Below, one piece after another: positions 10,009 to 30,040 of a DNA stretch of 33,625 nt (position 1 is its first letter; each line of letters starts with the position of its first letter). The translations under genes were made by a program, and so were the position numbers. The notes under the pieces are model-generated. The model did no database searches and had not been told where the DNA came from. It worked only from the letters and a program-made list of their open reading frames with translations. This DNA comes from Candidatus Tanganyikabacteria bacterium (GTDB taxonomy: Bacteria > Cyanobacteriota > Sericytochromatia > S15B-MN24 > VGJW01): contig VGJY01000030.1 in NCBI GenBank assembly GCA_016867235.1, forward strand, positions 1 through 33,625. Reading direction: 5' to 3'.

Positions 10009-10127
10009 CGGCTGCCCCGACACCGGTGCACGAGCCCCACGCCGGGCAAGGATGCCCGGCGAGCCGCCACGGATGGCACAGCGGGGGGGGCTCGGGGGGG
10101 GGCGGCACCCCCACCGAGCAGGCTCGA
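10009..10127 (+). repeat. Start-codon-associated repeat, copy A (degenerate)
   Basis: First of three related copies in the window. It begins CGGCTGC, carries a perfect 8-bp palindrome GCCGGGCA/TGCCCGGC (10041-10048 and 10053-10060, loop AGGA), then a G8 run, a G9 run and a C-rich return arm ending at 10118, directly before ATG 10128. Compared with copies B and C, the Shine-Dalgarno has decayed (GAGCAGG for GAGGAGG), TAATG has become GAATG, and the G-runs are longer. As a result the frame that opens at GTG 9996 runs straight into the downstream glycosyltransferase. Confidence 0.8.
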
Positions 10128-12246: not shown

Positions 12247-12361
12247 CGGCTGCCCAGAAAGCCGTCAATGAGCCCCACGCCGGGCAGGGATGCACGGCGA
12301 GTCGTCACGGACGGCACTGCGGGGGGGCTCGGGGGGGCGGCACCCCCCCGAGGAGGCACTA
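12247..12361 (+). repeat. Start-codon-associated repeat, copy B
   Basis: It fills the rmlA-rmlB gap. Parts: CGGCTGC opening; imperfect palindrome GCCGGGCA/TGCACGGC (12279-12286 and 12291-12298); G7; then a perfect 10-bp hairpin CTCGGGGGGG/CCCCCCCGAG (12328-12337 and 12343-12352, loop CGGCA) that runs into GAGGAGG (12350-12356), a strong Shine-Dalgarno five bases before ATG 12362. A short frame of 42 codons from ATG 12234 crosses the whole element and ends in TAA overlapping the rmlB ATG. Whether the peptide or only the RNA shape matters is unknown. Confidence 0.85.
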
Positions 12362-13393
12362 ATGAAGATCCTCGTCACCGGCGGCGCCGGCTTCATCGGC
12401 TCGAACCTGGTCCGATTCCTGGCCGACACCTATCCCCTGGATTACATCGTCAACCTCGACGCGCTGACTTATGCCGGCAACCGCGAGAGCGTACGAGATC
12501 TCGACACGAAGCCCAACTACCAGTTCGTCCATGGCGACGTCACGGACGCCGACCTGATCGACGGGTTGATGGCGGGAGTGGACGCGGTGATGCACCTGGC
12601 CGCGGAGAGCCACGTCGACCGCTCCATCTCGGATCCCGGGGCCTTCGTGCGCACCAACGTGGTCGGTTCGCAGGTCTTGCTGGAAGCGGCACGCCGGCAC
12701 AAGGTCGGCCGTTTCCTCTACGTGAGCACCGACGAGGTGATGGGCAGCCTCGGTCCGGCCGGCCTGTTCGACGAGGAGACGCCCCTGGCGCCCAATTCGC
12801 CGTACTCGGCTTCCAAGGCGGGCGGCGAACTGCTCGCCCGGGCGTTCTTCCACACGTACGGCCTGGAGACCCTCATCACGCGCTGCTCCAACAACTACGG
12901 GCCCTATCAGTTCCCGGAGAAGCTGATCCCGTTCTTCCTGCTGGAACTGCTGGACGGCGGCACGGTGCCCCTCTACGGCGACGGCCTCAACGTCCGGGAC
13001 TGGCTCTACGTCGAGGATCATTGCCGGGCGCTGGATGTGGTCCTGCGCCGCGGGACGCCGGGACAGGTCTACTGCGTCGGCGGCAACTGCGAGCGCACGA
13101 ATGCCGAGATCACGCACTTCCTGCTGGCGGCCACCGGCCGCGGCAAGGACGCCATTCGCTACGTCCAGGACCGCCCCGGGCATGACCGCCGCTACGCGAT
13201 CGACGCCGGCAAGATCAAGCGGGAGCTTGGCTGGGAGCCGGCCCATGACTTCCAATCCGGCATGACTGCTACAATTGCGTGGTACAATGCCAACGCTTGG
13301 TGGTGGCGTCCGCTGCGTGAGCGGGCCCTCGATCCCGCCCGGGCCGCGGCCAATCAACAGCCGGCGCAGCCCGGAGTCGCCGCCGCGCCATAG
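12362..13393 (+). CDS. rmlB: dTDP-glucose 4,6-dehydratase
   Basis: A 343-residue extended short-chain dehydrogenase that converts dTDP-glucose to dTDP-4-keto-6-deoxyglucose with bound NAD+. It has [13 protein letters not shown] at the N-terminus, HLAAESHVDRSI, the catalytic STDEV (Thr-Asp-Glu) and YSASK (YxxxK), and TRCSNNYGPYQFPEKLIP, all diagnostic of RmlB. One position differs from the usual STDEVYG: here it is STDEVMG. The C-terminus has about 25 extra Ala/Pro-rich residues. The ATG overlaps a TAA as TAATG and is served by the GAGGAGG supplied by repeat copy B. It uses the product of rmlA just upstream. Confidence 0.95.
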   Translation: MKILVTGGAGFIGSNLVRFLADTYPLDYIVNLDALTYAGNRESVRDLDTKPNYQFVHGDVTDADLIDGLMAGVDAVMHLAAESHVDRSISDPGAFVRTNVVGSQVLLEAARRHKVGRFLYVSTDEVMGSLGPAGLFDEETPLAPNSPYSASKAGGELLARAFFHTYGLETLITRCSNNYGPYQFPEKLIPFFLLELLDGGTVPLYGDGLNVRDWLYVEDHCRALDVVLRRGTPGQVYCVGGNCERTNAEITHFLLAATGRGKDAIRYVQDRPGHDRRYAIDAGKIKRELGWEPAHDFQSGMTATIAWYNANAWWWRPLRERALDPARAAANQQPAQPGVAAAP

Positions 13394-22629: not shown

Positions 22630-22705
22630 TTCTGCCTTTTGGCCGAAGTTGACCGTTCGTGCGGCCGTGGCGCGCGCGGGGCGAGAATGCGACGGTGGTT
22701 AAACC

Positions 22706-22835
22706 GGACCCCGTGCCGACCGAGTGGGGCCGGCTTCCGTGCCGGTCGAGTGGGGCCGGCTTCCGTGCCGACCGAGTGGGGCCGGACCCCGTGCCGACCG
22801 AGTGGGGCCGGCCTCCGTGCCGGCCTGGAGGGCCC
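22706..22835 (+). repeat. 26-bp tandem repeat, five units
   Basis: Units begin at 22706, 22732, 22758, 22784 and 22810. The consensus is GGMYYCCGTGCCGACCGAGTGGGGCC in two parts (GGMYYCCGTGCCGAC, then CGAGTGGGGCC); the first four units differ at only a few bases and the fifth has drifted. The fifth unit contributes the GGAGGG (22827-22832) that serves ATG 22836. There are no unique spacers, so this is not a CRISPR array. Confidence 0.85.
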
Positions 22836-23435
22836 ATGGTCCACGTGTTCGCCGAGTTCCGCTGGGAAGCGACCCTGGACGCCGCCGTCGCGCGGTCCTG
22901 CGAGGAGGACAAGCCGCTGCTGCTCGACCTGTTCGCGCCTGGCTGAGGCGGCTGCGCCGCGATGGATACCGTGACGTATCCTGACGATCAGGTGGTGGCG
23001 CGACTGGGCGAGCGCTTCGTGGCGCTACGGCTGCAAATCGACAAGCACGAGCCCGTCGCCAGGCAGTTCAACGCCGTGTGGACGCCGACCCTGCTGGTGC
23101 TCGACGGCGACATGCACGTCTGGGTACGGACCTTCGGCTGGTACCCGCCGCGCGAGTTCGTGCCCTGGCTGGCGCTCGCCGAGGGCAAGTACCGGCTAGG
23201 ACGCGGCCAGACCGGCGCAGCCGCCGACCTCTTCGACGAGTGCGCGGCGCAATGGCGGGACTCCCACAGCGCTGCCGAAGCCCTCTACTGGAAGGGCGTG
23301 GCGCTGTACAAGCAGGGCGACAAGGACGGGTTCGGCAAGGCCTGGTACCGCCTGCGGCGCGAGCATCCCGAGAGCATCTGGACGCAGAAGGCCTCCTTCC
23401 TCTGGCTGGGGAAACGGCCGACGCCCAAGGGGTAG
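22836..23435 (+). CDS. Thioredoxin-fold protein with in-frame TGA: candidate selenoprotein (UxxC)
   Basis: Read through the TGA at 22944-22946, this is a 199-residue protein. Before the TGA: DKPLLLDLFAPG, the beta strand leading to the redox site of thioredoxin-like proteins. After it, in the same frame: GGCAAMDTVTYPDDQVVARL, the classic second cysteine (residue 40) and following helix. So codon 37 sits exactly where the first cysteine of CGGC belongs, giving U-G-G-C if selenocysteine is inserted. The cis-proline motif VWTPTLLVL (W82-T83-P84) follows. Residues from about 125 look like TPR helices (AEALYWKGVALYKQGDKDGF). A hairpin at 22964-22981 fits a bacterial SECIS. Alternatives are a nonsense mutation or sequencing error turning TGC into TGA. 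If read conventionally it would be a 36-codon stub plus an orphan frame from 22962. Confidence 0.8.
22964..22981 (+). promoter_or_regulatory. Candidate bacterial SECIS hairpin
   Basis: Perfect 6-bp stem GGATAC (22964-22969) and GTATCC (22976-22981) with six-base loop CGTGAC. The loop starts 24 bases after the TGA, and its second base is G followed by T. Known bacterial SECIS elements have a short stem, a loop with G in the first two positions, and a loop some 16-37 bases after TGA, so the geometry fits. The region also encodes a conserved protein motif, so chance pairing is not excluded. Confidence 0.6.
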
Positions 23436-29847: not shown

Positions 29848-30025
29848 CGGCTGCGCCAGTGCACTTGCACGAGCATCACGCCGGGCAGGGATGCCCGGCG
29901 AACCGCCACGGATGGCACTGCGGGGGGCCGGCAGAGGAGCGGTCGCGAAGCGAGCGCCCGGCCAGCCGGCGCCTCGAACGCAGTGAGAGGGCTCGGGGGG
30001 GCGGCACCCCCCCGAGGAGGCTCTA
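29848..30025 (+). repeat. Start-codon-associated repeat, copy C (with 63-base internal insert)
   Basis: Same order as copy B: CGGCTGC, perfect palindrome GCCGGGCA/TGCCCGGC (29880-29887 and 29892-29899), G6, then the perfect 10-bp hairpin CTCGGGGGGG/CCCCCCCGAG (29992-30001 and 30007-30016, loop CGGCA) running into AGGAGG (30015-30020), five bases before ATG 30026. Between the G-run and the hairpin copy C has 63 extra bases (about 29929-29991) with small palindromes such as TCGC-GAA-GCGA. The insert keeps the reading frame of the short ORF that ends in TAATG. Confidence 0.85.
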
Positions 30026-30040
30026 ATGAGCCGCATCGCC
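30026..30040 (+). repeat. 15-bp direct repeat, right copy (start of imuB)
   Basis: ATGAGCCGCATCGCC, the first five codons of imuB, identical to 29817-29831 on the other side of repeat copy C. Confidence 0.75.

Follow-up and report, generated by a model that had tools for sequence, protein, structure and literature searches.

Does the in-frame TGA codon of a thioredoxin-like gene from a Cyanobacteriota genome mark a broken reading frame, or is it decoded as selenocysteine (Sec)? The gene is located on a stretch of 33,625 nucleotides from Candidatus Tanganyikabacteria bacterium (contig VGJY01000030.1, class Sericytochromatia), in the following referred to as the window. An initial annotation, made from the letters of the sequence alone, had read the gene as a selenoprotein gene. 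The comparisons described here strongly support this reading, all sequence-based tests that the annotation had proposed being favourable, and the TGA-interrupted gene very likely encodes a working Sec-carrying redox protein.

Reading frame and domain layout

Inspection of open reading frames (ORFs) reveals a frame at 22836-23435 (+) with a single internal stop, the TGA at 22944-22946. The codon is preceded by LLLDLFAPG and followed by GGCAAMD, and 163 codons remain open downstream, with the TAG stop counted. The initial annotation had described a TGA at the first position of a CxxC motif in an otherwise open frame, and its account of the flanks, the 163 codons and the WTP motif is confirmed. 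The read-through product consists of 199 residues and combines the motif APG-U-GGC-AAMD with a WTP cis-proline and a helical tail (Table 1).

Table 1. Features of the putative selenoprotein gene and its surroundings (positions in the window).
Feature	Position	Strand	Evidence and remarks
Candidate ribosome-binding site GGAGGG	22827..22832	+	3 nt ahead of the ATG; suggested by sequence
Putative selenoprotein gene, Thioredoxin_7 domain and TPR tail, 199 residues	22836..23435	+	ATG start, TAG stop; homologues with the same TGA
Thioredoxin-fold domain, residues 9-112	22860..23171	+	Pfam, AlphaFold2 model, structural match, profile matches of members
TGA codon, predicted Sec37, attacking position of UxxC	22944..22946	+	Same column in 47/47 members
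Small hairpin GCGGC-UGC-GCCGC between UGA and SECIS	22948..22960	+	Fold; L072 has GGTGGTTGCAAAAAA there and does not form it
TGC codon, predicted resolving Cys40 of UGGC	22953..22955	+	Cys at +3 from the Sec column in 48/48 members
bSECIS-type hairpin GGAUAC-CGUGAC-GUAUCC	22964..22981	+	6 bp, 6-nt loop, G at loop position 2; fold, pairs, codon conservation
cis-Proline codon, Pro84 of WTP (WTP at 23079-23087)	23085..23087	+	Sequence, alignment
Helical TPR tail, residues 114-183, conserved A-x-EALYW motif	23175..23384	+	Pfam, alignment, AlphaFold2 model

The remainder of a thioredoxin fold and a TPR-like tail, both expected after the TGA by the initial annotation, are recovered by Pfam profiles. 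Thioredoxin_7 (PF13899) matches residues 9-90 (1.4e-11, 44.8 bits, curated cut-off 27), and its profile is likewise matched by 8 of 8 family members tested at E 0.001. TPR_16 covers residues 114-173 with 32.3 bits, marginally below its cut-off of 32.7. The read-through protein also scores 38.2 bits with Thioredoxin_2 and barely exceeds the cut-off of PF00085 (23.7 vs 23.5 bits). An AlphaFold2 model with eight family members as input (mean pLDDT 85.9, pTM 0.83) resembles thioredoxin folds, the top structural match being the Trx-TPR protein YbbN. As read from the sequence, no hydrophobic stretch resembling a signal is present in the N-terminus MVHVFAEFRWEATLDAAV, and the protein is therefore likely to be cytosolic.

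Immediately upstream of the gene, a 26-nt unit, CCGGCCTCCGTGCCGACCGAGTGGGG, is repeated in tandem 4.6 times (22704-22822); the array separates the gene from a phosphoglucosamine-mutase-like gene. The 5' two thirds of the window (1201-22629) have, judged from ORF reading alone, the look of a polysaccharide cluster, with apparent genes for glycosyltransferases, an ABC exporter, nucleotide-sugar enzymes, a sugar transferase and the phosphoglucosamine mutase. The window further contains a dispersed repeat of about 100-180 nt, whose copies are roughly 69-80% alike (10009-10111, 12247-12349 and 29848-29950; 10054-10127, 12292-12365 and 29956-30029). The repeat carries a GCTCGGGGGGGCGGCACCCCCCCGAG inverted repeat, ending just ahead of possible start codons.

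A family with TGA at the UxxC site

In two relatives from other genera (46 and 51% protein identity), this codon is likewise TGA. Among 85,000 species genomes scanned, the same two and five more were recovered, all with TGA; the record titles of the five read Thermomicrobiales, Blastocatellia, Pyrinomonadaceae, Acidobacteria and Terriglobia. Further full-length members came from profile searches in the phyla of the relatives L077 and L074 (396 and 400 genomes, respectively). In total, 46 further homologues with TGA at this codon, a kind of relative that the initial annotation had proposed to look for, were found in Cyanobacteriota, Acidobacteriota and a third phylum, that of a Thermomicrobiales record. 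The family is thus placed in at least three bacterial phyla, and identity to the window protein ranges from 32 to 51% for the seven homologues aligned. A scan of genome contigs with the window protein alone as query gave no match, because such a query reaches close relatives only; an alignment as query did recover the family. No relative was found among the IMG/VR viral contigs searched.

All 47 full-length TGA-bearing members contain exactly one stop, always TGA and always in the same alignment column, which is far from chance. A second in-frame stop, of the kind that the initial annotation had named as evidence against its reading, occurs in none of the full-length TGA homologues. The resolving Cys at +3 is retained in 48 of 48 members, including the single Cys form, and the motif across the family is U-x-[GA]-C.

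A homologue with Cys at position 37 had also been suggested as a check. The sole Cys form found (L108, genome G386, motif HCKGC) stands against 47 Sec forms. Its Cys aligns with the UGA codon of the other members, which also falls at the CxxC of the thioredoxin profile. In the tree L108 branches among the Sec forms, with a long branch and a support of 94/90, and a search of its genome detected no tRNA-Sec. The tree position and the lack of a detected tRNA-Sec fit a Sec-to-Cys replacement, which is possible and would be rare, although the long branch leaves the placement unsure. CxxC thioredoxins without the TPR part lie on the opposite side of a 100/97 branch from the family; CxxC matches in the window's own class were rejected as members, being generic thioredoxins with no TPR tail that branch outside the family. 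The ratio of 47 Sec forms to one Cys form suggests strong selection for Sec at the UxxC site. The ORFs around seven homologues show differing neighbours and no recurring partner, and genomic context therefore names no substrate.

The downstream hairpin and the Sec machinery

According to the bSECIS model (PMC13188914, Fig. 2), a bacterial SECIS element has an apical loop of 3-9 nt, a stem of 4-16 bp, a G in the first two loop positions, a distance of 16-37 nt between UGA and loop, and a minimum free energy (MFE) of at most -7.5 kcal/mol. The fitting hairpin that the initial annotation had placed just downstream of the TGA is indeed present, comprising nucleotides 21-38 when the UGA is counted from nucleotide 1, and is conserved with compensatory changes. 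It agrees with the model in loop size and stem length (6 nt and 6 bp) as well as in G position and spacing (CGUGAC, with 23 nt separating it from the UGA). The isolated hairpin of 18-20 nt has an MFE of -6.0 to -7.2 kcal/mol, slightly short of the model's value, the hairpins of relatives have -7.6 to -9.8 kcal/mol, and the whole segment of the window gene folds at -15.9 kcal/mol. The 47-nt segment by itself is not unusually stable (z = -1.08), and the evidence for the hairpin is therefore comparative and does not derive from folding energy. The Rfam search of the window at gathering thresholds returned no RNA family.

L072 (46% protein identity) is more A+T-rich in this region and shares 20 nt, ATGGATACCGTGACGTATCC, identical to the hairpin region of the window; L073 has the stem GGGUAC...GUACCC, corresponding to a compensatory change from A-U to G-C. 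For both, folding the 48-nt segment without constraints gives a minimum-energy structure other than the hairpin. Two hairpin types are found among the 47 members, type B in 24 and type A in 23, with one member counted in both and L091 in neither. Type A consists of the stem CUCGGCU-GGA-AGCCGAG with loop GGA, and L091 has a shifted hairpin of 8 bp with the 6-nt loop GAACAA. Within type B (n=24), pairs 1 to 3 are 22 G-C and 2 G-U, 24 G-C, and 21 A-U and 3 G-C, respectively; pairs 4 to 6 are 24 U-A, then 14 G-U, 7 A-U and 3 G-C, and finally 24 C-G. All six pairs are present in 24 of 24 type B members (about 1.1 expected from random choice among the gene's own synonymous codons) and at least six pairs in 21 of 23 type A members (about 2.0 expected), a contrast that is somewhat inflated since the types are assigned by the very pairs counted and the expected numbers are rough. 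Where sequences share the amino acid, codon identity reaches 0.75-1.0 at type B codons 6-11 and 0.8-1.0 at type A codons 5-9, compared to about 0.3-0.5 immediately outside and mostly 0.3-0.6 away from the hairpin; a few further columns have high values as well, for example type A codons -6 (0.99) and 24 (0.91). The small hairpin between the UGA and this element was rejected as SECIS, as it is not formed in L072 and L073, and is probably incidental.

The genome of the window (6.12 Mb in 514 contigs, rated 100% complete, metagenome-like) harbors selA, selB, selC and selD, the four genes whose presence had been proposed as a check. The tRNA-Sec scores 67.5 bits (cut-off 47), and ARAGORN identifies this gene too, with anticodon TCA; selB scores 334.8 bits (cut-off 242). 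The selA gene (485.9 bits) lies partly on contig C221; its tail is at the start of C429, the contig that carries selB. The selD gene (392.3 bits) itself contains one in-frame TGA in the context AG-U-ASKVGP, i.e. AG-U-ASKVGPADLAQVL; at this locus (L136, G000 C198:3769-4695, minus strand) the TGA is located near the N-terminus at the usual Sec/Cys position. SelD is a known selenoprotein family (PMC13188914), and the genome hence holds at least two selenoprotein genes.

Both tRNA-Sec and selB also exceed their cut-offs in genomes of the same family (G001, G002, G004), the same order (G007, G008) and the same class (G010). Across the phyla, a tRNA-Sec was detected in 35 of the 38 genomes that carry the TGA form vs 25 of 40 genomes sampled from the same phyla that lack the gene (Fisher p = 0.0026, only a guide, the genomes being related); for the genomes of the named family loci the count is 6 of 7. 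Three TGA-form genomes have no tRNA-Sec under a strict filter and may be incomplete assemblies. An Acidobacteria genome (G064) apparently has four tRNA-Sec genes (66-69 bits) on contigs C15, C6 and C11, two of them 2.1 kb apart on C6.

Explanations other than Sec decoding have to account for the same observations. TGC and TGA differ by a single base and the assembly is fragmented, as would suit a nonsense mutation or a miscalled TGC. The same codon is, however, TGA in 47 members whose genomes were assembled independently and represent at least three phyla; none of these genes has another internal stop, and synonymous sites right after the TGA are conserved. The recurrence at one column refutes a pseudogene or sequencing error, and we regard its probability as negligible. 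Hardly any chance is left, either, for TGA having been reassigned to Trp, Gly or Cys throughout the genome instead of being recoded locally as Sec. Such a reassignment would explain that the frame stays open when TGA is read as a residue, yet 11 of 25 ORFs examined in the window (some of them overlapping) end in TGA, which is thus an ordinary stop elsewhere in the window, the family gene terminates with TAG, and the TGA of the family is confined to the CxxC position, with a tRNA-Sec of anticodon TCA and selA, selB and selD present. Finally, the locus might give two products without read-through, a short peptide up to the TGA and a re-initiated protein of 157 residues, given that an ATG at 22962, 15 nt past the TGA, opens an ORF of this length. 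Such a protein would lose the first beta-alpha unit and the entire UxxC of the thioredoxin fold. Re-initiation is rejected as very improbable because the upstream part (P27, D31) is conserved among homologues and the ATG is a non-Met codon in many relatives (CTG in L074-L078).

Proposed function and relation to known systems

Sec decoding at this locus is therefore our preferred reading, and we hold with high confidence that an intact selenoprotein gene with hairpin-directed Sec decoding encodes a cytosolic thioredoxin-fold oxidoreductase with a partner-docking TPR part. From the position and conservation of the TGA, the machinery, the conserved hairpin, the fold, the UxxC motif and the cis-proline, we infer that the UGA at 22944 would be translated as Sec by SelB and tRNA-Sec, directed by the hairpin. 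In Sec thioredoxins, UxxC and cis-proline within a thioredoxin fold serve thiol-disulfide exchange with Sec as the attacking residue, and the same chemistry is most likely here. Sec37 would attack a disulfide or another oxidised sulfur or selenium substrate, and Cys40 would resolve the mixed selenenylsulfide. The C-terminal TPR-like repeats are most likely a docking site for a protein partner or client, an arrangement similar in outline to that of the Trx-TPR protein CnoX/YbbN. We regard a Sec-dependent thiol-disulfide oxidoreductase of the cytosol, binding a partner through its TPR half, as the most likely role.

The family may nevertheless be a thioredoxin-like selenoprotein family already described under another name. 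A catalogue of 119 selenoprotein families, given in a 2026 review, does contain thioredoxin-like entries with UxxC, and the window protein weakly matches the NCBIfam models for TsoB, for the Trx7/PDZ (seleno)protein and for the VPGUxxT selenoprotein. These scores are far below the curated cut-offs (28.3 vs 805, 19.0 vs 300 and 17.3 vs 275 bits, respectively), no NCBIfam model (June 2026) scores above its cut-off, and the table of the review lists no UxxC family combining Thioredoxin_7 and TPR. We therefore consider a known family unlikely. Among openly accessible papers, none was found that treats selenocysteine together with Sericytochromatia or Cyanobacteriota, and a prior mention elsewhere is possible.

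The sequences instead point to an additional, nearly Sec-only thioredoxin-fold selenoprotein family, absent from the catalogues checked. We lean, with moderate confidence, towards a broader reading: an undescribed, almost Sec-only Thioredoxin_7 and TPR family with the motif U-x-[GA]-C in Cyanobacteriota, Acidobacteriota and the Thermomicrobiales phylum, with two conserved SECIS forms and, in a Cyanobacteriota lineage, a complete Sec system including a UGA-containing selD, its members acting as chaperone-linked, selenium-based thiol repair factors. The family-wide extent, the near absence of Cys forms and the Cyanobacteriota lineage go beyond what the initial annotation could know.

Selenoproteins are mostly discovered via SECIS models or via pairing with abundant Cys homologues (PMC13188914). 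A family of 47 Sec forms and one Cys form is of the kind that Sec/Cys pairing would miss, and standard gene calling would cut its genes at the TGA. According to a 2022 review (PMC9312934), Sec use seems to be missing from Cyanobacteria; a full Sec system with two selenoprotein genes in a Cyanobacteriota lineage would revise this statement. The two SECIS forms within one family would constitute a natural experiment in SECIS turnover.

Among known selenoproteins, TsoB (NF045694), a rhodanese/DsbD fusion, likewise has a DsbD-like domain, and the nearest solved sequences to the Trx half are C-terminal domains of DsbD (3.8e-13). The window protein differs by having neither a membrane nor a rhodanese part; the TsoB motif is UxxxxU, with two Sec (PMC13188914). 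The Trx7/PDZ (seleno)protein (NF041199) shares the Thioredoxin_7 domain but carries a PDZ domain, and its Sec occupies the second position, CxxU (PMC13188914). E. coli CnoX/YbbN (PDB 3qou) has the same succession of an N-terminal thioredoxin fold and TPR helices, whereas the window protein is shorter (199 vs 282 residues in the PDB chain) and Sec-bearing. The structural match to YbbN is partial (E 1.4e-6, TM 0.40 of query, 13% identity), and no CnoX-type model is among the Pfam and NCBIfam matches of the window protein. Hence a CnoX-like protection or repair of oxidised clients is put forward by analogy, as a hypothesis and not as membership. With the Sec-containing thioredoxin (PF00085, UxxC), classed as experimentally verified (PMC13188914, Table 1), the window protein has in common the thioredoxin fold, the attacking Sec, the resolving Cys and the cis-proline; unlike it, the window protein scores best in Thioredoxin_7, has a UGGC or UxGC motif and carries an extra TPR tail.
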